Source: Methanoregula formicica SMSP (GTDB lineage: Archaea; Halobacteriota; Methanomicrobia; Methanomicrobiales; Methanospirillaceae). Taken from it: a stretch of 64,000 nt of DNA. Each line of letters starts with the position of its first letter. Position 1 is the first letter of the stretch. Location: contig NC_019943.1 in assembly GCF_000327485.1 (NCBI RefSeq), positions 558,001 to 622,000 on the forward strand, given 5' to 3'. Below the pieces are notes generated by a model. The model was given only the letters and a program-made list of their open reading frames with translations, did not search any database and was not told where the DNA came from. A program made the translations under genes and the position numbers. Of this stretch, positions 18,564 through 63,631 are shown piece by piece.

Positions 18564-18571
18564 TATCGTCA

Positions 18572-18582: not shown

Positions 18583-18633
18583 GTTTCCCCGATCCACGAT
18601 ATATAAATCGCAGGAGCGCGAATTTAATGGGAT

Positions 18634-19377: not shown

Positions 19378-19460
19378 CCATCACGATGTCCGCTTTTCCG
19401 GCCCGGATACCGTTTTTCCTGCAACCTTGTTTTATCAGGTCTGACCCGGCCCATGAGAAC

Positions 19461-41905: not shown

Positions 41906-42042
41906 AGCATACCTTACTGACTGGTACAGTGAACAAACAGATAAATTTATTGAATACGTGCCCGACGGCGGATGGCAGGGCGGCTGGAAAGGTTAATCCC
42001 GTTCATCTCCTTTATTGTAGTAAACGCAAAGGATACTATCCT

Positions 42043-45629: not shown

Positions 45630-45802
45630 TTGAAGCAGCCCAGCTGGCACTCCCGGATCTTGATCCGGTTCTTTGTGCAGTACTCGCCCACGGCTTTCCG
45701 CGAGACTTTTGCCTTCTCGGCGATCGCAAATGCCTGCGGGCAGGTGATCTTCTCTGTTATTCCGGCTTCTTCCAGTGCTTTTTTGATCGTATCGTCACTC
45801 AT
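45626..45802 (-). CDS. small HTH-like protein with four cysteines (58 residues)
   Basis: Read by eye from ATG at 45802 to TGA at 45626: starts MSDDTIKKALEEAGITEKIT and continues CPQAFAIAEKAKVSRKAVGE, YCTKNRIKIRECQLGCFK. The middle looks like a helix-turn-helix (AFAIAEKAKVSRKAVGEYC). It overlaps moeA by ATGA, so it comes first in the moeA operon. Cysteines at about 20, 43, 52 and 56 might bind a metal, perhaps making it a small sensor for the pathway. That is speculation. Confidence 0.7.
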   Translation of the reverse strand: MSDDTIKKALEEAGITEKITCPQAFAIAEKAKVSRKAVGEYCTKNRIKIRECQLGCFK

Positions 45803-48626: not shown

Positions 48627-49700
48627 TCACTCCGAGCGTTCATCCCCATTCATGGAAATCACGTGGACGGCCGTTGCCTTGAACGTTGCAAATACCCCGC
48701 TCCCCTCTTTCAGGTCAAGGTCACGACAGCTCTCGCGGGTGAGGAGTGCCGTGAGCGGGAATCCCGCATCCAGGCTCACCCGCACTGTGCTTCCCGAAGA
48801 AACGATCCCGGTAACGATCCCCCGCAGGCAGTTTCGGGCACTGGACTCGAACGGCGCTTTTGAGAGGATCACGTCCTCGGCATGCAGGGTGGTGACCACG
48901 TCTCCCGTGACGGGTGAGGCCGCAGTAAAGGCCGGGCCGCGTGTGGGTGTGATGCGGACAATATTCCTCTCACGTACCGATCTCCCCCGTATGATGTTGC
49001 TGATCCCCAGGAACTCGGCAACGAAAGTGTCTTCCGGGTGGAGAAAAACTTCCGATGTCTCTCCCACCTGCACAATCCGACCCTCCCGCATGATGGCGAT
49101 CCGGTCGGCAAGGGCAAAGACATCGTCGAAATGGTGGGTGATCTGGACGATGGTTGTCCCGGTCACGCTCCGGATCCGGGAGAGTTCGCGGCGCATCCGC
49201 TCCCGGCTCCGGCTGTCGAGTGCGCTCATCGGCTCATCGAGAAGCAGGACTTCCGGCCGGAGCACGAGGGCCCGGGCCAGGGCCACTCTCTGCTGTTCCC
49301 CACCGGAGAGCGTGCCGGGGTAGCGTTTTTTCAGATGCCCGATCTCCATCAGGTCGTACATTTCCAGCACGCGATCCCGCTGTTCATGTGCGGGGACTTT
49401 TTTCTGGTTCAGCCCGAACGCGATGTTCTCTTCAACCGTGAGATGGGGGAAGAGCATGTAGTCCTGGTATACCATGCCGATGTTCCGTTCGCGGGGTTCG
49501 CGTTCCGTAATGTCAACCGTATCGAGAAGGATCCTTCCATCCTTGGGAATATGAATCCCGGCAATGGTCTCCAGGAGAACCGTCTTTCCCGCGCCGGTCG
49601 GCCCGAGGATGATGAAGTACTCATCGGAACGGATCTCAAGCGAAACATCATGAACGGAAAATTCTCCCAGCGTTATGGAGAGGGATTCAATGCGCAGCAT
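48627..49700 (-). CDS. modC: molybdate/tungstate ABC transporter ATP-binding protein
   Basis: The 357-residue product has Walker A GPTGAGKTVLLE, ABC signature LSGGEQQRVALARAL, Walker B VLLLDEPMSALD and the H-loop ITHHFDD, then a C-terminal TOBE (MOP-like) domain from about residue 285 that ends FATFKATAVHVISMNGDE, which binds the oxyanion in related proteins. It gives energy for uptake of molybdate or tungstate. Fourth gene of the run modA-trmO-modB-modC; only 12 bases after modB. Its last 45 codons are repeated in truncated form at 47453. Confidence 0.93.
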   Translation of the reverse strand: MLRIESLSITLGEFSVHDVSLEIRSDEYFIILGPTGAGKTVLLETIAGIHIPKDGRILLDTVDITEREPRERNIGMVYQDYMLFPHLTVEENIAFGLNQKKVPAHEQRDRVLEMYDLMEIGHLKKRYPGTLSGGEQQRVALARALVLRPEVLLLDEPMSALDSRSRERMRRELSRIRSVTGTTIVQITHHFDDVFALADRIAIMREGRIVQVGETSEVFLHPEDTFVAEFLGISNIIRGRSVRERNIVRITPTRGPAFTAASPVTGDVVTTLHAEDVILSKAPFESSARNCLRGIVTGIVSSGSTVRVSLDAGFPLTALLTRESCRDLDLKEGSGVFATFKATAVHVISMNGDERSE

Positions 49701-49712: not shown

Positions 49713-50486
49713 CTAAAAGACGTTCACGTTCTTGTCAAGGTATTCGACCGTGCAGAGCGCGACAAGCGAGATCAGGATCAGGATGGTCGCGGCCGCGATG
49801 GCAAGGTCCACGTCTCCTGTCGAGATATTGAGGTAGAGGGCGATAGGCAGTGTCTCGGTCCGCATGGTTGTTGCGCCGGCAAGCATCAGGACTGCGCCGA
49901 ACTCCCCCATTGCCTTGGACCACGTGATCACGGTGCCGGCAATGAGGCCGTGCCGTGCCATGGGAAGGGAGACCCGGAAGAATGCACCGGTCTCCGTGCA
50001 CCCGAGCGTCTTTGCCACGTGCTCGAACCGCGGGTTGATGGATGCAAACGTCGAGCGCATGATGCGGACCATGTAGGGGAGGTTGACGAAGACTTCCGCA
50101 ACGATGATCCCCAGCGGGGTGAAGATAACAGCAAAGCCGGCACTGTCGAGTGCCTTTCCCCACGGGGTTGTGCCGAAAAAGAGGAGGAGCGCGATGCCGG
50201 CAACCAGCGGGGGGAGTGTCAGGGGAAGTGTCAGGACAAGGCTTGCGATCCGCTTTCCCGGGAACGTATACCGGGCAAGCGCATAGGCAACCGGGACGGC
50301 TATAGCTATGCAGATGATGGTCGATGCCACGCTCGTTACAAGACTGAGCAGGATCGCAAACCGGATCTCGGGGCTTGCAAGGCTCGAAAGAAGCGTGGAG
50401 AGCGGAGAGTAGAAGAGGAGGCCAAGGAGCATCCCGCTGATAACAAGAAAGAGGATGAGGGTTAAGGCCAGCGATACTTTCCGCAT
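49713..50486 (-). CDS. modB: molybdate/tungstate ABC transporter permease
   Basis: The 257-residue product has about six hydrophobic segments with the ModB-type EAA motif ARTLGCTETGAFFRVSLPMARHGLIAG (here AKTLGCTETGAFFRVSLP) and GEFGAVLMLAG. Membrane part of the ModABC importer. Starts 21 bases after trmO; a normal bacterial-type permease length. Confidence 0.92.
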   Translation of the reverse strand: MRKVSLALTLILFLVISGMLLGLLFYSPLSTLLSSLASPEIRFAILLSLVTSVASTIICIAIAVPVAYALARYTFPGKRIASLVLTLPLTLPPLVAGIALLLFFGTTPWGKALDSAGFAVIFTPLGIIVAEVFVNLPYMVRIMRSTFASINPRFEHVAKTLGCTETGAFFRVSLPMARHGLIAGTVITWSKAMGEFGAVLMLAGATTMRTETLPIALYLNISTGDVDLAIAAATILILISLVALCTVEYLDKNVNVF

Positions 50487-50507: not shown

Positions 50508-50987
50508 TTACTGCTGCCGGATACCCGATCCCGCTTCCCGGAGCCTCCCGACATGTGTCGTGGTGACCCACCCGGGGGCGGCATCAGGGATGGAATCGAA
50601 CGCCGGGATATAGGGCTTGATATCGAGGACCGGTGTCCCGTCAAGAAGGTCGATCCCTTTCACCGAGAGAACCCCATCAGTAATCCCTGTCAGGGCAACG
50701 TACGAGATCCCGATCGGGTTGGGCCGGTTGAAGTGGCGGGTGGCGAAGATGCCGTGGTTTGCCTCCCCGTCCAGGAGCGGCTTCTCCGCAAGTGCCCGCT
50801 TCTCTGCTTGGTTGAAATGGGAGAGGATGATGAGGTGCGAGAATCCTTCGATGTCGCGGAGCCCCTCACGGTATTCGAAAAAGACCTCGATTGTCCCTGT
50901 GGCCTGCGAGAACGAGCTCTGGAACGGGGGTGCACCGCGTGTCGTGAGCTCTGAATGCGCAATCCCTATCGGGCGGAAGTCCATCAT
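50508..50987 (-). CDS. trmO: TrmO/TsaA-type tRNA methyltransferase
   Basis: The 159-residue product has FRPIGIAHSELTTRGAPPFQ, LRDIEGFSHLIILSHFNQAE, GIFATRHFNRPNPIGISYVALTG and LDGTPVLDIKPYIPAFD, the conserved set of the TrmO (VirR/YaeB) family, which methylates N6 of t6A37 in tRNA with SAM. Its place between modA and modB is surprising but consistent with an operon (20 and 19 bases of spacing). Such genes are common next to metal or molybdate genes in archaea, where their role could be different. Start M at 50987 or 50984. Confidence 0.85.
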   Translation of the reverse strand: MMDFRPIGIAHSELTTRGAPPFQSSFSQATGTIEVFFEYREGLRDIEGFSHLIILSHFNQAEKRALAEKPLLDGEANHGIFATRHFNRPNPIGISYVALTGITDGVLSVKGIDLLDGTPVLDIKPYIPAFDSIPDAAPGWVTTTHVGRLREAGSGIRQQ

Positions 50988-51006: not shown

Positions 51007-51849
51007 TTACGGCTGGACGTTCGCATAGACCGGGTCCGGGTAGATCGGGAACCCGTGCTTTGCAAAGATCGCCTTGCCCTCGTCCGATGCCACGAACGCC
51101 ACGAACTTTGCTGCGGCATCGGAATTCTGCGTGAACGTGGTCATACCGATGGGAGTGATCAGGACCTCGTTTACCGTAAGCGGGATCTCGATCATGTCCA
51201 TCTTGTCGGTTTTGACATTGTCAAGCGTCAGGAGGGCGGCGTCGGCCTGCCCGGCATTCATGATCGTGACCAGTTCGTTGATGGTCGGTGTGCGGGTCAC
51301 CACGTTCTTCTCAACGTCAGCGGTAATGTTCAGCTTCTTGAACATCTTCGCCCCAGCCTTGCCGATGGCCGTGGCATCGACATCACCGAGTGCGATCTTC
51401 ATGCCAGGCTGTGCAAAATCCTTCAGCGTGGCGATGTTCTTCGGATTGCCCTTCTGCACCACAATCACCGGCACGTGGTAGGCAACAAGCTGGTAGGAAT
51501 CGACGAGGCCCTGCGCTTTTGCGGTCTTCCACTCGTTCGTCGAGCCGGGGATGAAGACATCACCCTTGTGGGTCAGGTTCATCTGCGTGATGAGGACTCC
51601 GCTTCCGCCATAACTGTACTGGACGCCGATGCCGTACTTTTGCGTGAATGCCTTACCAGCATCTTCCATCGGGGCCTTGAGCCCAGCGCCGGAGAAGACG
51701 AGGATGCTCTCCGTGGGAACTGCGGTTGTTGCCGCTGCGGTGCTCTTTGCACCCTGTGACGAGGAGGTGCAGCCGGCACATGCCGCTGCGATGAACAGGA
51801 TGACGAGGGCGATACTGATGATGAGTGTTGAGTTCAGTTTCTGGGTCAT
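51007..51849 (-). CDS. modA: molybdate/tungstate-binding lipoprotein
   Basis: The 280-residue product starts MTQKLNSTLIISIALVILF, has a lipobox (ACAGC, Cys about residue 27), then the ModA fold: ILVFSGAGLKAPMEDAGKAF, VQYSYGGSGVLITQM, FIPGSTNEWKTAKAQGLV, KIALGDVDATAIGKAGAKMF and FVAFVASDEGKAIFAKHGFPIY. It captures molybdate or tungstate outside the cell. First gene of the operon. A 22-base AT-rich region upstream (51885-51905, TAATAATTATTTATTA-like) is the likely promoter. Confidence 0.92.
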   Translation of the reverse strand: MTQKLNSTLIISIALVILFIAAACAGCTSSSQGAKSTAAATTAVPTESILVFSGAGLKAPMEDAGKAFTQKYGIGVQYSYGGSGVLITQMNLTHKGDVFIPGSTNEWKTAKAQGLVDSYQLVAYHVPVIVVQKGNPKNIATLKDFAQPGMKIALGDVDATAIGKAGAKMFKKLNITADVEKNVVTRTPTINELVTIMNAGQADAALLTLDNVKTDKMDMIEIPLTVNEVLITPIGMTTFTQNSDAAAKFVAFVASDEGKAIFAKHGFPIYPDPVYANVQP

Positions 51850-52014
51850 GGAAATCATTCCGAGGATCAGGGATCGACCGGACACTAATAAATAATTATT
51901 GATTTACTTTTTTTATTTGTTAACCAGAAAAGCCGGATATTCCGGTTGAACCATTGCAGCGTACAGCAGGAACTGCCAGGTGTGTTCGCTGCGTGGGAAA
52001 GAAGGAAAAAAAGA
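51850..52014 (-). promoter_or_regulatory. promoter region of the mod operon
   Basis: Minus strand: AGTAAATCAATAATTATTTA and TTAGTG follow each other, giving a TATA-like box about 40 bases before the modA ATG (52 bases when counted from the AT-rich centre). The inverted repeat AATAATTATT within it could hold a regulator site, such as for a ModE/TupR-like or other sensor; this is speculative. The remainder of the gap to the fdhB fragment has no gene. Confidence 0.5.
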
Positions 52015-52350
52015 TTAATGTTTGCCCGGCATCGGGTTGAACACATTCTCGTAGATCATGTCGCTGCCGGTGTTGTGCAGGCGGGCGCGCTCCTCTCTCT
52101 CCTCAGCATAGGCAAGGATCGGGAGTTCCATGTCCCGGCCGGGGACGTGGCCGAACATCTTTTCGAGCTCGACCTGCTGGGAGTGCATGAAGAGGGCGTT
52201 CGGGATCTCCGACGGGCAGAGTTCCTGGCACTGGCCGCAGTTCACGCAGCTCGATGCAATGTGGGCGAAGCAGATGAGGTGGAACATGAAGTTCGGGGGG
52301 ACCTCACCGGAGGGGAGGGCTGGAGGAATGATCCATGATACTTCTGGCTT
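52015..52350 (-). pseudogene. 3' fragment of fdhB (formate dehydrogenase beta subunit)
   Basis: The minus-strand frame reads KPEVSWIIPPALPSGEVPPN, then FMFHLICFAHIASSCVNCGQ, and CQELCPSEIPNALFMHSQQ, ending in a normal stop at 52015. The CVNCGQC...C cluster motif and the following LEKMFGHVPGRDMELP are those of the C-terminal Fe-S end of F420-reducing formate dehydrogenase beta (FdhB). A full FdhB has about 400 residues; here only about 111 are left, preceded by TGA and a hairpin at 52381. It is a remnant, unless the missing part sits elsewhere. Confidence 0.8.
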
Positions 52351-52433: not shown

Positions 52434-52707
52434 ATAAAATTATCTCTTTGATTTGGGCTTATTTTTCGGATCAGAGCCCATTTTAGGAAACGGGTTTCCG
52501 GATAGTCGCGGTTTTTGGCGAATTACAGCGATCGATTTCAAAAATATTGATGTATAGGGGAAATTTCGAGGATCTGGGAATAATACGGGCGCCAAAATCG
52601 GATTAATTGTTGCCCTTCTGATCGATCGCGGGGGAGGAATTCAGGGAAGTGTGGGGCCGGAAGACCCGGTGGGGGGTCGGATCCGGGGCCGGGATCACAG
52701 CACCAGG
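52434..52707. repeat. dispersed non-coding repeat, copy 2
   Basis: Shares its blocks with 47633-48015: AAAATTATCTC, TTTTTCGGATC-GAGCCCATTTT, TTTTTGGCGAATTA, then CCAAAA...TTAATTG, GAGGAATT...GGGGTCGGAT and GCCGGGATCACAGCAC. It lacks the additional 110 bases of copy 1. Its right end contains the stop codon of the FmdE-like gene (TCA at 52695 on the plus strand). No reading frame of note. Both copies are on the 3' side of a minus-strand gene and next to the 3' fragment of another gene. Confidence 0.7.
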
Positions 52708-53252
52708 TAATATGCCCCGTCCGCACAGGCTTTGCATATGGCCTTGCCATCCCGCATAATCTCGCGGCCGTCCATGATCCGCTCGCCGCATTGCGTGCAG
52801 AGCGTCTTGTGTTTCGGCATCCCTGGAATATCGTTCTCGGGAATTTCAACGGAGACCCGCTGAATCTTTAGGATCTCTTCATCAGGGGCGGTCGCAAGGG
52901 CCTGCAGCATCTCCTTTGGGTCCATCTGGTCGTGCTTTGCCCGGTTCTTCTCGTCCACGGCAACCCGCACGGCCCGGCCGGACTTCAGGTCGACAAACGT
53001 TGCGGCAAACCTGCCGTAGTCGCGGAACTTGAGGCTGCGGTGGCCCAGCGAACAACCGGTGATGGCCTGCACGGCATCAGCGCCGCACCGGTCGATCTCC
53101 ATGTATACGATCAGATCGCGGTGGTGTTCGAGAGGGTTCAGCCCGAGTTCGCGGAGCCCGGCGATTGTCAGCCGGGTGCCCAGCACGATCCCGGCGCAGA
53201 CATGACCGTGGAATTCTCTCGCTTTTGCAAACAAACTATCATAATCGCTCAT
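52695..53252 (-). CDS. FmdE-type metal-binding protein
   Basis: The 185-residue product has the FmdE N-terminal domain with FHGHVCAGIVLGTRLTIAGLREL (conserved His and Cys likely bind metal), DRCGADAVQAITGCSLGHRSL, and a C-terminal zinc ribbon CTQCGERI...CKACADG. FmdE was first seen with formylmethanofuran dehydrogenase, but stand-alone forms often lie near metal importers. Its start overlaps the stop of the methyltransferase gene (ATGA at 53249-53252), which faces the metal-importer operon. I infer that it handles the imported metal or chelate. Confidence 0.85.
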   Translation of the reverse strand: MSDYDSLFAKAREFHGHVCAGIVLGTRLTIAGLRELGLNPLEHHRDLIVYMEIDRCGADAVQAITGCSLGHRSLKFRDYGRFAATFVDLKSGRAVRVAVDEKNRAKHDQMDPKEMLQALATAPDEEILKIQRVSVEIPENDIPGMPKHKTLCTQCGERIMDGREIMRDGKAICKACADGAYYLVL

Positions 53253-54178
53253 GATCTCCTCCTCTTTCCTGAGGTCTTGTTATCTTTGTTGTTCCCGCCG
53301 GTATTCCGTGCGTCAGCGACATTCCACCAGAGATGGGCGCCAAGGGTCTTTTCCCCCAGCACGAATCCCTGGTCCGTCTTCCGCAGCATGGCGTGGAGAT
53401 AATTCCTCACAATTTCCTCATGCTCCGGAGCCGCGCAGTTCAGGCGCCGGATGTATTCTCCCGTAGCCTCCTCGAACGTGGCAAAGGAGGATGCCGGTGA
53501 CTTGGTCTCGACAGTAAGGTTCGCGTAGATCCCCATCTCGAAAAGGACCATAAAGAGCCAGTCAGCCGTGGGCTCGCCCGGGAACTCCCCGCCATGGATC
53601 AGCGGCCAGAGGTCCCGGTTCACGTTCGCCCAGGCTGGCGGGGTAAGGAACCAGAAGAGGTGTACGGTCCCGTGGCAGCAGCGCTGCATCTTTGCGATTG
53701 CCTCTGCAATGTCCATCATCGTGAGGGAGTAGGACGCGATCACGATATCGTAGGGCTCGCCGAGTTCTTCCATGCCCACATCCTCCCACCGTTTCGGGAT
53801 AACCGATATGCCGGAGATGTTCTCTTGGACAATTCGTTCAGCCAGTGCCTCCCGCATCACATCCGAAGGTTCGACAACCGTCACCGTACACCCGCGGGCC
53901 GCCAGCGGTATGGCAAACGTGCCGGGTCCGGCGCCGATGTCCAGCACGCGCGAGCCATCGGGTATCGCCATGGCCTCCAGCCGTTCCCCGGTCTGGTGCT
54001 GGTTCTTCTCCCGGCCCTTCATGTACACGGTTTTGACATTCTTCCTGTTGTTCCAGAACTGCTTGTTGTTGCCATAGTTCGGCACGGCGCAGTGCGCCAG
54101 CTTGACCCGGCGCCACCGTTCACTCCAAGTTGGTAAAGGGATACTCCCGGTATATGGGGGGCTGGTATACTCGTTCAT
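53249..54178 (-). CDS. SAM-dependent methyltransferase (metal cluster, leftward operon)
   Basis: The 309-residue product begins MNEYTSPPYTGSIPLPTWSE and carries a class I SAM motif VLDIGAGPGTFAIPLAARG, VVEPSDVMREALAER and a partner motif DIVIASYSL. Before the methyltransferase core is a segment with WRRVKLAHCAVPNYGNNKQFWNNRKNVKTVYM. A GGGGAGA stands seven bases before the ATG at 54178, which I take as the start; a longer frame begins at 54226 in the promoter region. Substrate unknown; with FmdE-type, DUF364 and importer genes nearby, a small metal-binding molecule is a good guess. Confidence 0.8.
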   Translation of the reverse strand: MNEYTSPPYTGSIPLPTWSERWRRVKLAHCAVPNYGNNKQFWNNRKNVKTVYMKGREKNQHQTGERLEAMAIPDGSRVLDIGAGPGTFAIPLAARGCTVTVVEPSDVMREALAERIVQENISGISVIPKRWEDVGMEELGEPYDIVIASYSLTMMDIAEAIAKMQRCCHGTVHLFWFLTPPAWANVNRDLWPLIHGGEFPGEPTADWLFMVLFEMGIYANLTVETKSPASSFATFEEATGEYIRRLNCAAPEHEEIVRNYLHAMLRKTDQGFVLGEKTLGAHLWWNVADARNTGGNNKDNKTSGKRRRS

Positions 54179-54360
54179 TGATTCTCTCCCCGTTTGTTGT
54201 TCACTTATACTAATTGATTTTTTCATTTATTAATGACATTAAGCGAACATGGTGCAGGAGATGAAAACTCTCTTGTAAAATGATATTAGTTTACTTCTCA
54301 AAAAATTAACCAATTTCCCAAAACTTAAATGGTCCAACAGACAACCGGATCAGGATCACT
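54179..54360. promoter_or_regulatory. divergent promoter region of the metal cluster
   Basis: A 182-base AT-rich gap separates the leftward methyltransferase-fmdE pair from the rightward genes. Near-matching inverted elements TATACTAAT (about 54208) and ATTAGTTTA (about 54285) flank the centre, and T/A-rich boxes on both sides could be TATA boxes. A common regulator, for instance a metal sensor, might bind here and control both operons. The exact operator cannot be assigned by reading. Confidence 0.45.
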
Positions 54361-54807
54361 ATGGGCTCAAAAGATGTCATGACAACCTTTGCCGAGCGGG
54401 ACATCCGCCAGTATTTTTCTGAATTCGACGGATGGAATATTGCCCCGATCACCGGAGTGCAATCACCGGTTGGCTTGTACCGGGCATCCCGGAACCGGCT
54501 GTACCACGAAGAAGTGGCCTTCATTGCGGTCTCATTTGATCCAATTCCGGAAAACGAGTGCATAACCGCTCTCGACGCACTTCCCTCAAGCCGGGGATCG
54601 CGGGTGAAGAAATTCCTGCTCACGCCACAGGCAACCGACACGTCATTTGTCCCTCCCCACGTGCAGGTCCTCCTGATGAAGGCATTCGCCTTTGCCGATG
54701 GCGATCTGGTCTGGCTCACGAAGAAGAAGAATGCCCGGCAGTATGCCTGTGCGCCTGCAGCACCGGCACCTGAACCGGTTACCACTCCCGCCACCCCGAC
54801 ATCATAA
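54361..54807 (+). CDS. unknown protein at the head of the metal-uptake operon
   Basis: The 148-residue product begins MGSKDVMTTFAERDIRQYFSEFDGWNIAPI and has a mixed alpha/beta fold with YHEEVAFIAVSFDPIPENEC, GSRVKKFLLTPQATD, and a Pro/Ala/Thr-rich tail of about 25 residues. No signal peptide. I recognise no family. It starts the rightward operon; 15 bases later the metal-dependent hydrolase-like gene begins. Its place argues for a role tied to the cluster. Confidence 0.6.
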   Translation: MGSKDVMTTFAERDIRQYFSEFDGWNIAPITGVQSPVGLYRASRNRLYHEEVAFIAVSFDPIPENECITALDALPSSRGSRVKKFLLTPQATDTSFVPPHVQVLLMKAFAFADGDLVWLTKKKNARQYACAPAAPAPEPVTTPATPTS

Positions 54808-54822
54808 TTCCGGAAACCGGCA

Positions 54823-55557
54823 ATGATCACGCGTCAGCATCTCCTGCTCGTACTGTTGTGCAGCGTTATCCTCAGCAGTGCCATCGTGGATTATAATCCG
54901 GCCCTGGCATTCCTAGTTGCCATCGGTGCGGGTACTGGTGCCATCATTCCGGATATCCAGATGAAACGGCCGAACAATAATCCGCTCCGGACGAGTGCGT
55001 GGGTGGTTGCCCAGGTGGGCCGGCGGATCTGCACACCGGTCATGTGCATATTCTATCGCAGGATCTTCAGGATCGATTGTAACCCTGGCGACAAATGGCT
55101 GACCCACTCCCTTCCCGGGTTAATCCTGAACTTCGGTATTCTTTCAGCAATCGCGTTTGTCCCGGTATTCGTATTCGGGGATGAGATTCCCGTGCTTCTC
55201 GTCATGGGGTTCCTCGCAGGGCTGTTGTTTGGCATGGTCCTCCACCTTGCAGAAGACTGCTGCTGCCGCAAAGGAATCGCGCTCTTCCATCCCTTCAATG
55301 ATACCAGGATTTACGGCTCAATCCGGCCCTGCGATGTCATCGACCGCCGGATCACCGGGTTCTACGTGTACCACGCCACGGTCCTCTTCTTTTTCCTGCT
55401 CATCCAGTCGGCGGTCCATGTCTCGTTCTATGAGATGATCGCTTTTGGTCTCTTTTCCATCTGCCTTTGCGTCGGATCCATGATCTGGCAGTCGGATGTC
55501 CGGATTGAGCTTCCGGATAACCGGATCGCTGACAGCCAGGAGGTAACAGTCACGTGA
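54823..55557 (+). CDS. YdjM-type membrane metal-dependent hydrolase family protein
   Basis: The 244-residue product has about six hydrophobic segments, with DKWLTHSLPGLILN (D..THS) and LHLAEDCCCRKGIALFHPF, a His/Asp pattern of the YdjM family (LexA-regulated, membrane-bound metal-dependent hydrolases). Function of the family is not well known. It begins 15 bases after the unknown gene and ends 10 bases before the permease gene, so it is in the same operon. CCC in the second motif is unusual. Confidence 0.72.
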   Translation: MITRQHLLLVLLCSVILSSAIVDYNPALAFLVAIGAGTGAIIPDIQMKRPNNNPLRTSAWVVAQVGRRICTPVMCIFYRRIFRIDCNPGDKWLTHSLPGLILNFGILSAIAFVPVFVFGDEIPVLLVMGFLAGLLFGMVLHLAEDCCCRKGIALFHPFNDTRIYGSIRPCDVIDRRITGFYVYHATVLFFFLLIQSAVHVSFYEMIAFGLFSICLCVGSMIWQSDVRIELPDNRIADSQEVTVT

Positions 55558-55567
55558 AGGGAGTATT

Positions 55568-56671
55568 ATGATATCTATTGCAAGGATATCCACGACCCTC
55601 TCCGGAGTAACGGCAGCAGTCGGTCAGCTCACAAGCCGGATATCAGCAGGCGCGACAGGTATGGTCTTCATCTACAGCCTCCTGCCCCTCATCTTCATCT
55701 GCTCCCTCTTCTTCGGGAGGTACGAGGTCTCCCCGCAGCATGTTCTCCAGATACTTGCAGCACCGGTCACAGACCTTGTGCCGGGAAACCTCATCCAAAT
55801 CGAACATACCTGGACGGCCGCTGAGGAGAATGTCATTTACCAGATCCGGCTCCCCCGGCTTGTCGCAGCAGTACTTGTCGGGGCCGGACTCTCCATCGCC
55901 GGTGCCGCTTACCAGGGGCTCTTCAAGAACCCGCTTGTCTCACCGGATATCCTCGGCGTGGCATCCGGTGCCGGCTTCGGCGCGGCACTTGCCATCCTCC
56001 TCTCGTGGAACATGGCTATGATCCAGGTATCGGCCTTCTGCTTCGGGATCCTCGCGGTCACCATCACGTACCTCCTCAGCAGGTTTTACCGGACAACACC
56101 CACGCTGATCCTCGTCCTGTCGGGTATTATCGTTGCCGCGTTCTTCACCGCCCTTATCTCGCTCACCAAGTACGTGGCAGACCCGTACGAGAAGCTGCCG
56201 GCCATCACCTTCTGGCTGATGGGCAGCCTCGCCTCGGTCCGCTATTCCGACCTCCTGATGGTCATCCCGTTCTTTCTTATCGCAACGGGAATCCTCCTCC
56301 TCATCCGCTGGCGCATCAACCTGCTTGCCGTGGGCGACGACGAGGCCCGGGCGCTCGGCATCGACACGAAACGGATGGGGCAGGTGATCATCCTCTGCTC
56401 CACGCTCATCACGGCATCAGCAGTATGCATTGCCGGCATCATCGGCTGGGTCGGCCTCGTTGTCCCGCATCTCGGCCGTATGCTGGTCGGTCCGGATTAT
56501 ACCCGGCTCCTGCCCGCGTGCCTGCTTCTTGGGGCCTGCTACATGCTCATTATCGATGACCTTGCGCGGATGCTCACGAATGCCGAGATCCCGCTCGGGA
56601 TCCTGACGGCCATCGTTGGCGCCCCGTTCTTTGCGTACCTGCTCAGCAGGAAATCGGTGGGGTGGATATGA
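55568..56671 (+). CDS. FecCD/BtuC-type ABC importer permease
   Basis: The 367-residue product has about ten hydrophobic segments and FecCD features: RLPRLVAAVLVGAGLSIAGAAYQGLFKNPLVSPDILGVASGAGFGAAL (with QGLFKNPLxxPDxLG), ALGIDTKRMGQVIILCSTLITASAVCIAGIIGWVGLVVPHLGR near the end. This is the transmembrane part of type II importers for iron chelates, cobalamin or related metal complexes. Overlaps the ATPase gene. Confidence 0.93.
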   Translation: MISIARISTTLSGVTAAVGQLTSRISAGATGMVFIYSLLPLIFICSLFFGRYEVSPQHVLQILAAPVTDLVPGNLIQIEHTWTAAEENVIYQIRLPRLVAAVLVGAGLSIAGAAYQGLFKNPLVSPDILGVASGAGFGAALAILLSWNMAMIQVSAFCFGILAVTITYLLSRFYRTTPTLILVLSGIIVAAFFTALISLTKYVADPYEKLPAITFWLMGSLASVRYSDLLMVIPFFLIATGILLLIRWRINLLAVGDDEARALGIDTKRMGQVIILCSTLITASAVCIAGIIGWVGLVVPHLGRMLVGPDYTRLLPACLLLGACYMLIIDDLARMLTNAEIPLGILTAIVGAPFFAYLLSRKSVGWI

Positions 56672-57519
56672 TCCTTGACGTGAACCAGGCCGGGTTCCGG
56701 TACGATTCGGTACGGATGATCTTCTCGGGCATCTCGTTCTCGCTTGGGGAGCAGGAGGTGCTCTGCATCCTTGGTCCGAACGGGATCGGCAAGTCAACGC
56801 TCATCCGGTGCCTTGCAAACCTCTACCCGCTCTGTGCGGGCTCAATCCGCCTGCACGACCGGGACATACGGTCCCTGAACTATCGCGACGTGGCCCGGGT
56901 CATCGGGTACGTTCCGCAGGCCCATGAGATCACCTTCCCGTTCAGTGTCCGGGAGTTCGTCCTCATGGGGAGGGCCCCGCACCTCGGGCTCTTTGCCTCG
57001 CCGGGAAAGGAGGATCGTACAAAAGCGGACGAGGCCATCGGGCTTGTCGGCATACAAAAGATCACAGACAAGCCGGTCAACGAGATCAGCGGCGGGGAGT
57101 ACCAGCTCGCCATGATTGCACGGGCACTTGCGCAGGAACCGGAGGTGCTCCTGCTGGACGAGCCTACCTCGCACCTGGACTTCGGGAACCAGATCCGGGT
57201 CCTGGAGATCATCGACCGGCTTGCCCGTGACGGTTTGTCCGTGATCATGAGCTCCCACTTCCCGGACCACGCGTTCCTCACCTCCAACAATGTTGCCATC
57301 ATGCAGCACGGCTCGTTCATGGCCTATGGGCTTGCAGAAGAGGTTGTCACGGAGACGAACCTGAAGGCGACATACGGGGTTGACGTCTCAATCACGTACA
57401 GCCATGACGTGGAACGGCATGTCTGCGTGCCGCACCGGTCCGGGCAGTGCCGGTGCCGGGATCCAAAGCAGCCGGAATATTCTCCGAAAATGGCCGCAAT
57501 GGTCCCTGCGATGAGGTAA
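56668..57519 (+). CDS. ABC importer ATPase, FepC/BtuD type
   Basis: The 283-residue product has Walker A GPNGIGKSTLIRCL, ABC signature ISGGEYQLAMIARAL, Walker B VLLLDEPTSHLD and H-loop SSHFPDH. The motif order fits FepC/BtuD-type ATPases. After about residue 245 there is an extra tail with His and Cys (HVCVPHRSGQCRCRD), which might bind metal. GTG at 56662 is an alternative start. It overlaps the permease by four bases. Confidence 0.92.
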   Translation: MILDVNQAGFRYDSVRMIFSGISFSLGEQEVLCILGPNGIGKSTLIRCLANLYPLCAGSIRLHDRDIRSLNYRDVARVIGYVPQAHEITFPFSVREFVLMGRAPHLGLFASPGKEDRTKADEAIGLVGIQKITDKPVNEISGGEYQLAMIARALAQEPEVLLLDEPTSHLDFGNQIRVLEIIDRLARDGLSVIMSSHFPDHAFLTSNNVAIMQHGSFMAYGLAEEVVTETNLKATYGVDVSITYSHDVERHVCVPHRSGQCRCRDPKQPEYSPKMAAMVPAMR

Positions 57520-57623
57520 GACGTTTTCCCGAAAACCAGAGTTCCGCTCCGACCGGGAAACACTGAGCAGGCAGATCCCATCCTATATTCGGGAGGGAAC
57601 GGGGAATTCAGAGGTATATCATT

Positions 57624-58721
57624 ATGACAGAACCCGAAAAGAAGCAAAAGAACAGCCGGTTGATCAAGATCCTTGCCGGGATCATTATCATCGGAGCTGT
57701 CCTTGCAGTTGCTGCAGTGATTGCATTGCCCAAAGCTGCTGCGGGACCGGTTGCTCACCAGACCCGGACCATCACCGATATGATGGGCAATACCGTGGTT
57801 GTTCCGCAGGAAGTCAACCGCATTGTTGTCACCTGTTGTGGGGGAGCCACCCATGAGGTGATGGTCATGGGAGCGGCAGATAGGATCGTTGCCCAGCCCG
57901 CCAAGTGCATCATGCCCGAGCTCAAGGTCATGAAACCGGGTTTCTCGTCCGTGACGGATGCCGGATCCTTTGACGACATCAATGTTGAGCAGATCATCGC
58001 GCTCCATCCCGATGTCGTCATTGCCAGTGTCACCTCGGAAAAGGGGAACACGAAACTCCGCGAGGCGGGCATCCCTGTTGTGACTGTCATGACCGGCCGC
58101 GGCAACATGAGCCAGATGCGGTCTGAGTTCGCCATGATGGGCCAGCTCCTGGGATCCGGGAATCAGGCGTCCTCATTAAACAACTACTGGGAGACGAAGC
58201 TCGCTCTTGTGAAGGAACGTATTGCAGCGATCCCGGCAAACGAGAAAAAACGGGTCTACTACATGCTGGGGAAGACCACCCACACCAACGGGGGAAGTTG
58301 GTGGGGACAGGAGTACGTCACTGCGGCCGGCGGCATCAATGTTGCCGAGGAACTCGGGACAAACCGGGACACCTCGCTTGAACAGCTGGTGAAATGGAAC
58401 CCGGAAGTCATCATCATCAGCAGCAACGAAGGCACCTTTATTCCCATAGCGGATGTGAAGAACAACGCCCAGCTGGGCAGTATCAGTGCTGTTAAGAACA
58501 ACCAGCTCTACGAATGCCCCATCGGATCGTTCTGGTGGGATCGGCCGTCGCCCGAAGCGCCGTTAGGAATCATCTGGCTTGCAAAGACACTGTACCCGGA
58601 GAAATTCTCCGACATTGATCTCAAAGCTGAGACGCAGGACTTTTACCGGACGTATTACGGGTACACACTCAGCGACGCTGAGTATGAGAAATTCCTCAAC
58701 CCGCAGCCTGCCACAAAATAA
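57624..58721 (+). CDS. metal-chelate ABC transporter substrate-binding protein 1
   Basis: The 365-residue product has an N-terminal membrane anchor (KILAGIIIIGAVLAVAAVIAL) without a lipobox and the type III periplasmic-binding fold: TRTITDMMGNTVVVPQEVNRIVVTCC, VEQIIALHPDVVIAS, WNPEVIIISSNEG and PSPEAPLGIIWLAKTLYPE. VTCCGG carries two Cys near the ligand cleft. The stretch ITDMMGNTV is shared with the two later binding proteins. It starts 104 bases after the ATPase. Confidence 0.9.
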   Translation: MTEPEKKQKNSRLIKILAGIIIIGAVLAVAAVIALPKAAAGPVAHQTRTITDMMGNTVVVPQEVNRIVVTCCGGATHEVMVMGAADRIVAQPAKCIMPELKVMKPGFSSVTDAGSFDDINVEQIIALHPDVVIASVTSEKGNTKLREAGIPVVTVMTGRGNMSQMRSEFAMMGQLLGSGNQASSLNNYWETKLALVKERIAAIPANEKKRVYYMLGKTTHTNGGSWWGQEYVTAAGGINVAEELGTNRDTSLEQLVKWNPEVIIISSNEGTFIPIADVKNNAQLGSISAVKNNQLYECPIGSFWWDRPSPEAPLGIIWLAKTLYPEKFSDIDLKAETQDFYRTYYGYTLSDAEYEKFLNPQPATK

Positions 58722-58739
58722 CGGAACACGTGAAGATGT

Positions 58740-59831
58740 ATGAACGGCAAAAAACCAGATCTCATCAATATCAGGATCGGGGAGGAGATCTCCTCGATCG
58801 ATAACATAATTGAGGGGTATAAAAGCTACCAGGTACTCCGTGCGGCCCTGACACTCGGCCTCTTTGACTGGCTGGACGAGCACGGCCCCGCATTACGGGA
58901 AGATATCGGAAAGGCATTGTCCATCAACGGTATGTTCACCCGGAGTTTCTTCCAGACGCTTATCGATCTTGGATTCCTTTCCGGAAAGGATGATCGCTTC
59001 GGGAATACGGACCTCGCAACACGGCTTTTGGTCCGGGGCAGCCCGGCATACCAGGGCGACTGGATCCTGAATGCCGCAGATGGCAACGGCCAGTGGGACA
59101 ATCTTGCTGAGACGCTTGCCCTCACCGCTCCGAAAAACACCGGCTTTTCCGAGGGACCGGGCCCGCAGTTTCTCCGGGCAGCGGGCGAGCGGGCCCTGCG
59201 TGGGGAAGTCCAGGGCATCACGAAGATCCTTAGTACATGGGACGGTTTTGGTAACGCTGAAACACTTCTCGATATCGGGGGTGGACATGGCCTCTACGCG
59301 ATTGCCGCCTGTCAGCAGAACCCCCGTCTCCATGCGGTTGTTTTTGACAAACCCCATGTCGTTGACCTGACCCAGGAATTTATCCGGCAGTATGGTATGG
59401 AAGACCGCATCACCGTTATGGCAGGTGATATCGTAACCGATGATCCCGGTTCCGGCTACGATATCGTGCTCATCTCTCACCTGCTCTACAAGTTCCGGGC
59501 CGATCTTCCCGCTATCTTCAAAAAAGTCTGCAACAGCCTGAAACCCCGGGGGCTCTTTGTCTCCAATCACTGGTTCTGCGGCCCGGTCTGCGGAGCCGGA
59601 TCTTCCGGCGTCAGGGAACTCGACCGGTCCATCCACAGTTACGGGCATCCGCTCTGCCACCCGGAGGACTTTGCCTCCGCGATGTTCATGAACGGTCTGG
59701 TTGTTACGAAACGGGCCACCATCGCCACGAACTTCGGGGACTCGCAGGTACACGTTGCCGAGAAGGTGCCGGAAGGGCAGAGCCCGCTGCCCCGCCAGGA
59801 ACGTTCATGCGGGTGCAGTTCATGCCAGTAA
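58740..59831 (+). CDS. O-methyltransferase-type SAM methyltransferase with Cys-rich tail
   Basis: The 363-residue product has an N-terminal winged-helix dimerisation domain (YKSYQVLRAALTLGLFDWL) and a class I core with TLLDIGGGHGLYAIAACQQN, HAVVFDKPHVVDL, VLISHLLYKF, as in the acetylserotonin/caffeate O-methyltransferase family (plant-like OMT and antibiotic tailoring). At the C-terminus is a CGCSSCQ motif, unusual for the family. It starts 18 bases after binding protein 1, so it is part of the operon. A role in making or modifying the transported ligand is inferred. Confidence 0.82.
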   Translation: MNGKKPDLINIRIGEEISSIDNIIEGYKSYQVLRAALTLGLFDWLDEHGPALREDIGKALSINGMFTRSFFQTLIDLGFLSGKDDRFGNTDLATRLLVRGSPAYQGDWILNAADGNGQWDNLAETLALTAPKNTGFSEGPGPQFLRAAGERALRGEVQGITKILSTWDGFGNAETLLDIGGGHGLYAIAACQQNPRLHAVVFDKPHVVDLTQEFIRQYGMEDRITVMAGDIVTDDPGSGYDIVLISHLLYKFRADLPAIFKKVCNSLKPRGLFVSNHWFCGPVCGAGSSGVRELDRSIHSYGHPLCHPEDFASAMFMNGLVVTKRATIATNFGDSQVHVAEKVPEGQSPLPRQERSCGCSSCQ

Positions 59832-60748
59832 ACCGCCGGCGCCCGGAACAGAAAAGCCGACCCGACACTGCCATCTCCGCTGAACCCGGGGCAATCCTTC
59901 GGGAGACCGTCGACGAACTCCAGTCCCGGTTCGGTCATAAGTTCGGTGGCATCACGGTCGAACGGGCTGTCATCGGGATCTTCTTCACCGGGGTGAAACT
60001 CAGCAACGGGTCGGGTGGACTCTGTTTCACGCCCATCAAGGAGATCCCTCAGGCAGTCTGCTGCCCGAGCTCGCTCCGGGCGCTTCCATGGTCCGGTAAG
60101 TTCCGGGGCCGGCCGGTCACGACCTTCCTTGATGCCCTCTTCGATCCGGGCCCGGTTAAACGGGCCTTCGGGATCGCAGTAGTAAATGCCCTATCGGCAT
60201 CCAGCTGGGAGCAGGAACCTCCGGAGGATTATCACATCGAACGTGGAACGGACCCTCTGGAAACGGTAGAGATCCCGGATGACGCACATGTCGTTGTCAT
60301 CGGGGCACTTGTACCAATCCTGATGCGGCTGAAAAAACGGGGAAAGCCGTACTCGATCATCGAGATGGACCCCCGGACCCTCAAGCCCGACGAGATGCCC
60401 TTCTGGGTGCCGGTAGAACGGACATCCGAAGTAGTTCCGCAAGCAGACCTGCTGGTCATCACCGGCACGTCTCTCCTCTTCCACTCGCTTGAGCCCATCC
60501 TCGCCAGTGCGAAGAAGGGGGCACACATCATCATTGTCGGGCCGACGGCAAGCATGCTGCCGGGGGCCTTCTTCCGGCGCGGGATATCTGTGCTGGGCGG
60601 TGACCTCGTGCTCCATCCTGACGATCTCCTGGATATCCTGAGTGAAGGCGGCTCCGGTTATCATTTCTTTGGCAAATCCGCGGATCGGATCAGTATCCGG
60701 AACGATCATTTCCCGGTAAATGGCACGACCAGGACAAAAAAAATTTAG
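59807..60748 (+). CDS. DUF364 (PF04016)/DUF4213-type putative heavy-metal chelation protein
   Basis: The 313-residue product has an N-terminal DUF4213-type (enolase-N-like) domain with VERAVIGIFFTGVKLSNGSGGLCFTP, and a C-terminal DUF364 Rossmann-like domain with HVVVIGALVPILMRLKKRGK, IEMDPRT and LLVITGTSLLFHSLEPIL, then HIIIVGPTASMLPGAFFRRGISVLGG. The family has been structurally described as a likely heavy-metal chelation protein. Its start overlaps the methyltransferase gene by 25 bases, showing tight coupling. Confidence 0.85.
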   Translation: MRVQFMPVNRRRPEQKSRPDTAISAEPGAILRETVDELQSRFGHKFGGITVERAVIGIFFTGVKLSNGSGGLCFTPIKEIPQAVCCPSSLRALPWSGKFRGRPVTTFLDALFDPGPVKRAFGIAVVNALSASSWEQEPPEDYHIERGTDPLETVEIPDDAHVVVIGALVPILMRLKKRGKPYSIIEMDPRTLKPDEMPFWVPVERTSEVVPQADLLVITGTSLLFHSLEPILASAKKGAHIIIVGPTASMLPGAFFRRGISVLGGDLVLHPDDLLDILSEGGSGYHFFGKSADRISIRNDHFPVNGTTRTKKI

Positions 60749-60758
60749 GGAGTATGGT

Positions 60759-61823
60759 ATGGATAAGAAAAGCATTTTCATCATTATCGGTGTGGCAGTG
60801 ATCGTGGTTCTCTGTGCAGCAGGGTATGCGGTCTATGCCTCGGAAGGCCACACGGTACCGTCACACACCACGAAAATGATAACGGACATGATGGGGAGAA
60901 ACGTGACAATCCCCGTTCCGGTCCAGAAAGTAGTGACGATCGGGTCGGTCCCGGTCCAGAACACATTCATCTTTGCGCTCGGGAAGAACGGGACGATAGC
61001 TAACGGGCTGCCGGAATCCTTCATCAAACAGGGACGCTGGAAGTACCAGCAAGTCTTTGCCCCTAACCTTATCGGCCAGCCGGGGATGCAGTCGGCCTCC
61101 TATGAGCCGAATGCCGAGGAGATCCTGAAGGCAGGGCCGGACCTAGTCTTCACTATGGACATGGCTACGGTCAAGAGCCTCGATAAAAGCGATATCAGGG
61201 TGGTCTATCTCTCATGGGTGGATGCCGAGGATGTGAAGAAGCTGATGACGCTCATGGGTGAGATATATGATGAGCAGGAGAAAGCTCAGGAATACGTGCA
61301 GTTCTTTGATATGACTATCCAGCGGATCGATGCAAAGGTGTCCACAATCCCAGCGGACCAGCGTCCGAAGGTTCTGTATTTCCAGTATACCAGCATGAGC
61401 GTTCCGCACAAGATCGGGGACTGGTGGATCACGAAAGCAGGAGGGAAGAGCGTGACTGATGAACCTCGCCAGACCGAGAGCCTGAAGATCGAACCAGAAC
61501 AGATCGTGAAATGGAACCCGGATATCATCATTGTTGCATCACCAGCAGAGATTGGGGCAGTGTACAATGACACTAGGTTGTCTTCTGTCCCTGCCATCAA
61601 GAACAAGAGGGTATATATCACACCGATGGGAGCGCACATCTGGAGTCATCGCGGGATCGAAACACCGCTGACCGTGCTGTGGGCAGCCAAAACATTCTAC
61701 CCGGATACATTCGCGGATCTCGACTTGGAAGCAGAGACCATCGTATTCTACAAGAAATTCTTCGGCTATCCCCTCACCTCAGACCAGGTGAAGGAGATCC
61801 TGTCCGGAAAAGCTAAGGCGTGA
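60759..61823 (+). CDS. metal-chelate ABC transporter substrate-binding protein 2
   Basis: The 354-residue product begins MDKKSIFIIIGVAVIVVLCA, a membrane anchor, followed by TKMITDMMGRNVTIPVPVQKVV and the binding fold with EEILKAGPDLVFTM, WNPDIIIVASPAEIG, KRVYITPMGAHIW and IETPLTVLWAAKTFYPD. Conserved NxxxI-TPMGAH at the cleft may bind ligand. The gene overlaps the DUF364 end in frame only at the DNA level (start 11 bases after). Its N-terminus is almost that of binding protein 3, from recent duplication. Confidence 0.88.
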   Translation: MDKKSIFIIIGVAVIVVLCAAGYAVYASEGHTVPSHTTKMITDMMGRNVTIPVPVQKVVTIGSVPVQNTFIFALGKNGTIANGLPESFIKQGRWKYQQVFAPNLIGQPGMQSASYEPNAEEILKAGPDLVFTMDMATVKSLDKSDIRVVYLSWVDAEDVKKLMTLMGEIYDEQEKAQEYVQFFDMTIQRIDAKVSTIPADQRPKVLYFQYTSMSVPHKIGDWWITKAGGKSVTDEPRQTESLKIEPEQIVKWNPDIIIVASPAEIGAVYNDTRLSSVPAIKNKRVYITPMGAHIWSHRGIETPLTVLWAAKTFYPDTFADLDLEAETIVFYKKFFGYPLTSDQVKEILSGKAKA

Positions 61824-61840
61824 TTGTTGTGGTGATACCC

Positions 61841-62956
61841 ATGGATAAGAAGAACCAGTACATCCTGATCACCGTCGCATTTCTCATTATTGCGGGTATT
61901 GCCGTGATAACACTCAGCGGGGCCTCAGTCGGCCATGCACCGGCAACGGCTCCTGTAGCACAAAATACGAAGATGATCACCGACATGATGGGGCGGAATA
62001 TCTTCGTGCCCCAGCCAGTCAGCAGAGTACTGGCCACCGGCCCTCCGACAACACTTGAAGTCTACGTCCTTGCACCGGACAAGCTGATCGGCGTCAACTT
62101 CAACCCGAACCCCGCTCCCGACGGCTCGGTGTATATGCCGGCAAAGTACCGGAACCTGACCGTTGTGGGCGGATGGTTCGGCACCCAGACCGGGAATTAT
62201 GAGTCTTTCATCGCCATGAACCCCGACATCATCATTGACATGTCGACACTCGGGGATCCCAATGCCACGAGCACCGTCAATGAGCGCCAGCAGAAGTTCG
62301 GTACCATATCCGTGGTCGGCATCACGGATGCAGCAAACGTGACCCAGTACGATCCCTCGATAGCATTCCTCGGGTCACTCCTTGGCGCGGACCAGCAGGC
62401 GGCGTCACTCTCGGAATTCTACAACCGTGTCCTCTCAAAGGTCACGTCCACGGTAAAGACGATCCCTGATGACCAGAAGGTCCGGGTTTACTATGCAGAA
62501 GGCCCCAAGGGACTCCAGACCGATCCGATCGGCTCCCCTCATGCAGAACTGATCGATCTCGCCGGTGGGATCAATGTCGCTGATTGTGCCATTACGCCGG
62601 GCAACGGGCGGACAACCGTCTCGATGGAACAGGTCACGAAGTGGAGCCCCGATCTCATTATTGTCGGTGACCCCGGATTCTACAAGACCATCTCCAACGA
62701 CACGCTCTGGCAGGTGATCCCGGCCGTGAAGAACCACCGGATCTACCTTGTCCCGCAGTCGCCGTTCACCTGGTTCGACCGGCCGCCCGGTGTCAACCGG
62801 ATCATCGGTATCCCGTGGACGGCAAAGGTTCTGTATCCCGAAAAGTTCACGGATATCGACATGCCGGCCCTGACAAGGGAGTTCTACAGCAAGTTCTATC
62901 ACTACGATCTCTCGGACAGCGAAGTGAACAGTTTGTTGGATCCGTCGATCCGCTAA
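61841..62956 (+). CDS. metal-chelate ABC transporter substrate-binding protein 3
   Basis: The 371-residue product begins MDKKNQYILITVAFLIIAGI and has TKMITDMMGRNIFVPQPVSRVL, IAMNPDIIIDMSTLG, WSPDLIIVGDPGFY and PGVNRIIGIPWTAKVLYPE. The N-terminal anchor lacks a lipobox, as in the other two. Ligand-lining residues differ from the second protein (QSPFTWFDRPPG in place of TPMGAHIWSHRG), so the three may bind different forms of a ligand or different metals. It starts 17 bases after the second one. Confidence 0.88.
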   Translation: MDKKNQYILITVAFLIIAGIAVITLSGASVGHAPATAPVAQNTKMITDMMGRNIFVPQPVSRVLATGPPTTLEVYVLAPDKLIGVNFNPNPAPDGSVYMPAKYRNLTVVGGWFGTQTGNYESFIAMNPDIIIDMSTLGDPNATSTVNERQQKFGTISVVGITDAANVTQYDPSIAFLGSLLGADQQAASLSEFYNRVLSKVTSTVKTIPDDQKVRVYYAEGPKGLQTDPIGSPHAELIDLAGGINVADCAITPGNGRTTVSMEQVTKWSPDLIIVGDPGFYKTISNDTLWQVIPAVKNHRIYLVPQSPFTWFDRPPGVNRIIGIPWTAKVLYPEKFTDIDMPALTREFYSKFYHYDLSDSEVNSLLDPSIR

Positions 62957-62974
62957 TCCAGGTATGGGGAAGGA

Positions 62975-63631
62975 ATGGCGTCCAGGACCGTGAACCGGGA
63001 GGAGCATACGGATGAGTCCGCTGCCGATTTCAATGAGATTGCCCAGACCATCTTCTTCCCCATTTACCCGGTCATCGCCAACCAGATCCTTGAAAGGACC
63101 GGTATCGAGCAGGGTCAGTGCCTCGACTTAGGGTGCGGCCCCGGGCATCTCGCCATCGCGCTTGCAACCTTATCGGACCTGAAAGTCTGTGCAATGGATA
63201 ATTCCCGGCCCATGCTCAGGATAGCGGAAGAGAATATCCGGAAATACCGGCTTGAACGCCGCGTACGGGCCGTCTTTGGCGATGTCATGGAAATCCCGTT
63301 CAATACCGGGTCGATGGACCTTGTTGTCAGCCGGGGGTCGTTTTTCTTCTGGCCAAACCTCTCCCGGGGTTTTTCCGAATGCCTGCGGGTCATCAGGCCC
63401 GGGGGAATTGCGTACATTGGAGGCGGTTTTGGAAATGCACGCCTCAAGGACGAGATCGCTGAAAAGATGCGGGTCCGGGATCCGGAATGGAAGGAGAAAC
63501 GGAACCGGTGGTCACAGAACTGCACACCCCCAAAGGTGCGGGCAGCACTTGTCTTTGCAGGTATCCGGGATTATGATCTCAATAAAGACGATTCGGGTTA
63601 CTGGATCGTGTTCCGGAAGCCGCTGAAGTGA
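62975..63631 (+). CDS. SAM-dependent methyltransferase (third of the metal cluster)
   Basis: The 218-residue product has the class I SAM fold: CLDLGCGPGHLAIALATL (motif I), AMDNSRPMLRIAEENI (II), GDVMEIPFNTGSMDLVVSRGSFFFW (III/IV) and ECLRVIRPGGIAYIGGGF. It is a UbiE/ArsM-like small methyltransferase without special domains. It begins 18 bases after binding protein 3. Substrate unknown; position suggests tailoring of the cluster's metal ligand. Confidence 0.82.
   Translation: MASRTVNREEHTDESAADFNEIAQTIFFPIYPVIANQILERTGIEQGQCLDLGCGPGHLAIALATLSDLKVCAMDNSRPMLRIAEENIRKYRLERRVRAVFGDVMEIPFNTGSMDLVVSRGSFFFWPNLSRGFSECLRVIRPGGIAYIGGGFGNARLKDEIAEKMRVRDPEWKEKRNRWSQNCTPPKVRAALVFAGIRDYDLNKDDSGYWIVFRKPLK

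Follow-up and report, generated by a model that had tools for sequence, protein, structure and literature searches.

The system closest to the one described here is MolBC-A of Haemophilus influenzae, an importer whose substrate is bare molybdate, taken up with low affinity (PMC4031551). A structural study of the DUF364 family pointed out that its genes occur in the context of molybdenum (Mo), tungsten (W), V and Fe transport (PMC2954201), and FmdE was originally described as part of operons for the molybdenum formylmethanofuran dehydrogenase, with fusions of its domain to MoCF_biosynth and to UPF0066 on record (PMC2954224). Here we analysed a gene cluster of the archaeon Methanoregula formicica in which an importer is encoded together with proteins of these families and with methyltransferases. 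The window, that is the whole stretch of DNA analysed, comprises 64,000 nucleotides (558001-622000 of the 2,820,858-bp chromosome), and coordinates given below refer to it. A first-pass annotation had described, around one divergent promoter, an importer, three binding proteins, three S-adenosylmethionine (SAM) methyltransferases, FmdE, DUF364/DUF4213 and a YdjM-like protein. All these genes passed the curated Pfam cut-offs used for our domain calls. The import of Mo or W by this system is a well-supported prediction, based on protein similarity, gene linkage and riboswitches.

Nearest relatives of the importer and of the binding proteins

The permease of the cluster (perm, 55568..56671, plus strand) is a FecCD-family, MolB-like permease of a type II ATP-binding cassette (ABC) importer (PF01032, E 3.5e-89). 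When compared with solved structures, it matched MolB of H. influenzae (HI1471, 2nq2_A) with 263.8 bits, the next match having 173 bits. Permeases for heme, siderophores and B12 matched at 138-173 bits (BtuC 138-142, HmuU and FhuB 171-173). Three other FecCD permeases of M. formicica gave 165-171 bits, in a search slightly different from the one that yielded the 263.8-bit figure. The ATPase (atp, 56662..57519, plus strand; PF00005) scored 127 bits with HI1470 (2nq2_C) and 125 with FhuC, values that do not separate a MolC-like from a FhuC-like protein.

The three binding proteins are encoded on the plus strand and belong to PF01497. Two of them are the membrane-anchored bp1 (57624..58721, E 1.6e-31) and bp2 (60759..61823, E 5.2e-23), and the third, bp3 (61841..62956), is the binding protein of a widespread core module. 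The open reading frames (ORFs) of bp2 and bp3 open at 60720 and 61820; these listed starts are probably too early, 60759 and 61841 being likelier. MolA (3psa) ranked among the first four solved relatives for each protein, with E-values of 1.2e-25 (bp1), 1.3e-15 (bp2) and 5.5e-22 (bp3). It is related to them and not their closest relative, as the uncharacterised binding proteins 4ovk, 4pag and 4hn9 outscored it (bp3 matched 4pag with E 5e-55).

Linkage to molybdenum genes and to riboswitches

The distance between genes of the system and metal-related genes was evaluated by rotating the former round each chromosome of 13 genomes (20,000 rotations, 15-kb distance). System places (n=38) were those of mtB, of the long DUF364 protein and of a radical-SAM fusion described below, and ModB places were found with the ModB of the window as query (E below 1e-20). 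The modB gene was within 15 kb of 15 of the 38 system places, as compared to 0.85 expected, and none of the 20,000 rotations reached 15. MoeA was within the same distance of 11 places (1.25 expected). FeoB, for iron, was near 0 places (0.80 expected), and CbiM, for cobalt or nickel, near 1 (0.94 expected). The eight other binding proteins of M. formicica are all encoded at least 148 kb from modB.

In 30 bacterial loci that contain related genes (0.54 Mb), we observed ten molybdenum cofactor (Moco) riboswitches; riboswitches for cobalamin or for Ni/Co were not found there. Twelve of these genomes hold 109 Moco riboswitches in about 51.9 Mb; at this background density 1.13 would be expected, as compared to the nine that are left when a near-duplicate locus is removed (an excess of about 8-fold). 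The Moco aptamer lies 160 bp ahead of a perm-atp-DUF364-bp3-radical-SAM fusion series in locus L182 (L numbers denote the loci compared), ahead of bp3-fusion-mtC in L193, ahead of an HmdB-like gene followed by the fusion in L197, and immediately before an mtB homologue, frameshifted in that record, in L214. Where readable, the aptamers of L186, L199 and L206 serve other genes (Mo oxidoreductase/moeA, tupA). No match to the Moco riboswitch (RF01055) was found within the 64-kb window.

The metal, which the first-pass annotation had left open, is most likely Mo or W, because the similarity of the permease and of the binding proteins to MolB and MolA, the linkage to modB and the riboswitches of the bacterial relatives agree. 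The evidence points away from the earlier assignment of the importer to the iron-chelate/cobamide type, given that MolB is the best permease match and that FeoB and CbiM are unlinked.

Two specific identities were tried and rejected: a BtuCDF cobalamin importer, on the weaker BtuC match, the unlinked CbiM and the lack of cobalamin riboswitches in the bacterial loci, and a ferric siderophore or heme importer, on the FeoB count and the HmuU and FhuB scores.

Methyltransferases, DUF364 and FmdE

The three methyltransferases are of three types. The product of mtA (53249..54226, minus strand) belongs to Methyltransf_23/25 (PF13489/PF13649), a family present in multiple copies in the related loci L122, L132 and L133. 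The product of mtB (58740..59831, plus strand) is of the O-methyltransferase type with a dimerisation domain (Methyltransf_2 and Dimerisation, PF00891/PF08100), and resembles the S-/O-methyltransferases DSYB and SibL (DSYB-type PDB matches, E 2.5e-19) and also BchU. That of mtC (62975..63631, plus strand; Methyltransf_11, PF08241, E 1.7e-20), which belongs to the core module, resembles BioC and UbiE. A paralogue of mtB was found in Methanospirillum inside a formylmethanofuran dehydrogenase operon; in L056 (9851-17432), L057 and L058, fmdC is separated from a second fmdD-fmdB pair by this paralogue and a 92-residue gene.

The Cys-rich tails reported earlier for mtB and the ATPase are real, and their conservation extends to some relatives and not to all. 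The CGCSSC tail of mtB takes the form CGCxSC in Methanoregulaceae and GCSCGPxGCG in Methanoculleus, and among the orthologues compared that of Methanospirillum has no such tail. The Cys-containing C-terminal tail of the ATPase, RxVC(V/I/L)P, is more widely conserved than that of mtB.

The DUF4213-DUF364 protein (59807..60748, plus strand; PF04016, E 7.5e-41, 139.6 bits with a cut-off of 23; PF13938, E 4.9e-20) belongs to its family by sequence as well as by predicted fold. The model, enolase-like and Rossmann-like, matched 3npg and 3l5o with TMt 0.79-0.82, the best being 3npg (0.82). It is a member of a long subfamily with the motifs VCCPSS and GGSGYHFFGKSA. Near several clusters there are short ORFs limited to the C-terminal GGSGYHFFGKSA part of DUF364 (e.g., L042 7517-7699), which may be remnants or small proteins. 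The FmdE protein (52695..53252, minus strand) likewise belongs to its family (PF02663, E 6.4e-32, 110.8 bits with a cut-off of 22.9), and has an HxHxC metal motif and a C-terminal zinc finger of the zf-dskA_traR type (PF01258). No non-ribosomal peptide synthetase or IucA/IucC synthetase domain was found by Pfam in any gene of the cluster.

The wider module and the radical-SAM fusion

About 120 loci were compared, some of which are overlapping copies of one place. The order perm-atp-bp1-mtB-DUF364 was found in six related genomes, where it mostly continues with bp2 and/or bp3-mtC, and bp1-mtB-DUF364 also in Methanoculleus and Methanospirillum. Relatives of bp1 are the genes most often found directly upstream of mtB, and DUF364 follows in 16 of the 27 mtB places. 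The order binding protein-mtC-radical SAM is present in many anaerobes. These orders allow a core to be distinguished, made of permease, ATPase, bp3, mtC and a radical-SAM/binding-protein fusion of about 590 residues, from an accessory part consisting of bp1-mtB-DUF364 with FmdE-mtA. In the core, mtC comes next after bp3 in 42 of 83 cases, and the fusion next after mtC in 66 of 97.

The core occurs in Methanomicrobiales, in Methanosarcina and its relatives, and in Syntrophomonas, Pelotomaculum and Sporomusa; a rearranged form is present in Desulfosporosinus, Clostridium, Desulfobacula, Sulfurospirillum and Deferribacteres. The system had been proposed as an archaeal one, and this distribution over Firmicutes, Desulfobacterota, Deferribacteres and Campylobacterota contradicts that view. 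In three deltaproteobacterial loci (L207, L213 and L218) the module includes a TonB-dependent receptor.

The fusion consists of a radical-SAM enzyme followed by a lobe that corresponds to the C-terminal one of Fec-type binding proteins. In its structural model (pLDDT 92), the N-terminal half resembles the folds of pyruvate formate-lyase (PFL) activase, MoaA and NifB, and the C-terminal half matches binding proteins, MolA included.

Other genes accompany the module in single loci or small groups of loci. HmdB/HcgA-like radical-SAM genes adjoin it in L055, L197, L201, L206 and L214, in hosts that are not expected to need the iron-guanylylpyridinol (FeGP) cofactor. XdhC is encoded near it in L201 and L204. 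The latter locus, from Desulfosporosinus, contains a divergent NifD-K-H-like trio between mtC and the fusion and a second nif-like set after it (6193-9902 and 14663-19833). A conserved protein of 390 residues without an NCBIfam match (L180 5148-6329, L176 7300-8472, L177 422-1594) adjoins a radical-SAM gene in Desulfobacula-like loci (stand-alone in L176 and L180).

Organisation of the locus and adjacent molybdenum genes

The divergent intergenic region (54227..54360, 134 bp), presumed to hold the promoters, separates the minus-strand pair of mtA and FmdE from the plus-strand importer genes, which are arranged in the order orf148, YdjM, permease, ATPase, bp1, mtB, DUF4213-DUF364, bp2, bp3 and mtC. 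The short distances reported by the first-pass annotation were confirmed: genes overlap by 4 bp (mtA/FmdE), 10 bp (permease/ATPase) and 25 bp (mtB/DUF364), and the other gaps measure 10-18 bp except for one of 104 bp ahead of bp1, a spacing that is operon-like. The first two plus-strand genes are orf148 (54361..54807), which has no assigned function and no Pfam or NCBIfam match and is limited to close relatives (6 loci), and the gene for the YdjM-like membrane protein (54823..55557; PF04307, E 1.3e-12). Promoter searches for k-mers, dyads and, by expectation maximisation, palindromes yielded only an AT-rich TAGTTAACTA-like palindrome, which was above background in the cluster promoters and, in a mod set of only 4 sequences, reached p ~0.01; we gave it no weight.

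The cluster had been delimited at 52695-63631, and the island proved larger: it starts at about 41.9 kb, with Mo genes and importer cluster within the same 22 kb. On the plus strand there is a MOT1-family molybdate transporter (41929..43185; PF16983, E 2.2e-52). On the minus strand there are the molybdopterin molybdotransferase MoeA (44421..45650; PF03453/PF00994/PF03454), the ABC ATPase ModC with a TOBE domain (48627..49700; PF00005 and PF03459), the molybdate/tungstate permease ModB (49713..50486; PF00528), orthologues of which lie near system genes elsewhere, and the oxyanion-binding protein ModA (51007..51885; PF13531, E 5.6e-59). Between modA and fmdE, formate dehydrogenase FdhB survives only as its C-terminal 84 residues (52015..52287, minus strand; residues 329-412 of 7bkb_E, E 4.9e-39). 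The adjacent modABC is a separate system, since the cluster importer is of the FecCD/Peripla_BP_2 families and lacks the BPD_transp_1 and SBP_bac_11 domains of ModABC.

Between modA and modB there is a SAM methyltransferase of the TrmO_N/UPF0066 type (50508..50987, minus strand; PF01980, E 2.4e-37), whose ORF was called to 51119, domain and likely start pointing to 50987. Its relatives adjoin mod genes, and in L199 and L200 the radical-SAM fusion; judging from this context, the protein may be a further methyltransferase of the system and not a tRNA enzyme. In Pelotomaculum such relatives come after the fusion.

Proposed function and alternatives

We favour, with moderate confidence, a reading of the locus as an uptake island for a Mo/W complex, with enzymes that act on the complex or on its ligand. 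The membrane-anchored bp1, bp2 and bp3 would capture the complex, probably two or more forms of it, and pass it to the MolBC-like type II ABC importer. The cytoplasmic steps would fall to the three methyltransferases, DUF364 and the zinc-finger FmdE, which would work on the complex or its organic ligand and so make the metal available to MoeA and to Mo/W enzymes, namely the formylmethanofuran and formate dehydrogenases. In many relatives the fusion of a radical-SAM enzyme with half a binding protein would complete the pathway. This retains from the first-pass annotation the import of a metal complex and enzymes acting on its ligand, and assigns the metal. We infer that Mo or W enters bound to an organic ligand, and that this ligand is what the methyltransferases and DUF364 would act on. 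The binding-protein lobe common to both suggests that the binding proteins of the importer and the cytoplasmic radical-SAM enzyme meet the same ligand. TonB receptors usually serve bulky, scarce ligands. Owing to their presence in the three deltaproteobacterial loci, a bare oxyanion appears less likely as substrate than a bulky complex.

Several observations weigh against this reading. The radical-SAM fusion was not found in the M. formicica genome, which, like one close relative (L044), keeps the transporter and both methyltransferase parts without it, and in M. boonei and three relatives the enzymes are present without a MolB-like permease. It follows that the parts are separable. The proximity to modB is uneven: it derives from 6 of the 13 genomes, is absent from the four Methanoculleus-type or Methanocorpusculum-type genomes tested and from several others of the 13, and peaks in Methanospirillum, in which a single region holds many of the system genes. 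The riboswitch evidence (Poisson p ~3e-6, a guide only because riboswitches cluster) comes from bacteria and not from this archaeon. Among the genes of the cluster we recognised none for the export of a secreted ligand. Finally, likeness to MolB does not demand an organic ligand, because MolBC-A carries bare molybdate.

The fusion, the methyltransferases and DUF364 might even make a Mo/W chelator, which the MolBC-like importer would retrieve once loaded, in archaea and, under Moco riboswitches, in bacteria. We regard this version as possible and rather doubtful. The system is best called a variant of Mo/W uptake, a metallophore pathway being the less likely reading.

Another explanation, which we consider less likely but take as a serious rival, is a plain oxyanion importer for bare molybdate/tungstate or thiomolybdate, with enzymes that serve another part of Mo metabolism, for example the pterin cofactor or the maturation of Mo/W enzymes. 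The substrate of MolBC-A (PMC4031551) would fit it, MolA and MolB being the nearest characterised relatives, as would the mtB paralogue in the formylmethanofuran dehydrogenase operon, the importer-less enzyme set of M. boonei and relatives, and the XdhC and MoeA neighbours. It accounts poorly for the TonB receptors, for three co-conserved binding proteins and for the binding-protein lobe of the radical-SAM enzyme, which suggests a ligand common with the importer.

That the system takes up an iron-siderophore, heme or a cobamide and lies beside Mo genes by chance is improbable. The FecCD and Peripla_BP_2 families are usually annotated in this way, and the binding proteins match 4hn9 and IsdE-like proteins; on the other side stand the linkage of ModB and not of FeoB or CbiM, the ten Moco versus zero cobalamin or Ni/Co riboswitches, and the better match of MolB than of BtuC, HmuU or FhuB. 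The salvage of a whole metallocofactor (e.g., W- or Mo-pterin) from other cells, remodelled by radical-SAM enzyme and methyltransferases, would suit a substrate big enough to need a TonB receptor, a cytoplasmic enzyme of MoaA/NifB/PFL-activase-like fold and the HmdB-like neighbours of several loci, but is very improbable, given that MoeA is present in 21 of 21 genomes examined, so that own Mo insertion is possible, and that we know of no Moco transporter.

Comparison with known systems

In a literature search that excluded preprints and most subscription papers, we found no account of this cluster, of any system by which strict anaerobes use a Mo/W metallophore, or of Moco riboswitches that control these genes. 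Key catabolic steps of methanogens, syntrophs and sulfate reducers depend on Mo/W enzymes, and in anoxic sulfidic habitats Mo and W are present in forms that may be inaccessible to simple oxyanion importers. If our reading is true, it suggests a function for DUF364, FmdE and the uncharacterised radical-SAM fusion, and points to genes that may underlie a Mo/W metallophore of strict anaerobes; it could be tested in genetically tractable relatives such as Methanosarcina and Sporomusa.

ModABC, TupABC and WtpABC handle the same metals, and ModABC is encoded next door; however, their permeases and binding proteins belong to other families and no such enzymes are attached. The N-terminal half of the radical-SAM fusion is related to AmmeMemoRadiSam (TIGR04337), with about 100 bits, under the family cut-off of 220. 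The enzyme of the relatives differs in carrying a binding-protein lobe, and no such enzyme is encoded in the window. DUF364 of M. formicica shares the enolase-N-like and Rossmann-like fold of 3l5o (Dhaf4260, PMC2954201) and 3npg (PH1506), but belongs to the longer subfamily, with VCCPSS and the C-terminal GGSGYHFFGKSA. FmdE has the HxHxC site and the zinc finger in common with its family (PMC2954224), which is known in fmd operons and beside metal transporters, whereas here it forms a two-gene operon with mtA, divergent from the importer. MolBC-A (HI1470-1472; PDB 2nq2, 3psa) is also a type II ABC importer and holds, by a wide margin, the nearest solved permease. It has one binding protein, whereas the M. 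formicica cluster has three, and it lacks the linked methyltransferases, DUF364 and FmdE, to which the relatives of the cluster add the radical-SAM fusion and TonB receptors.

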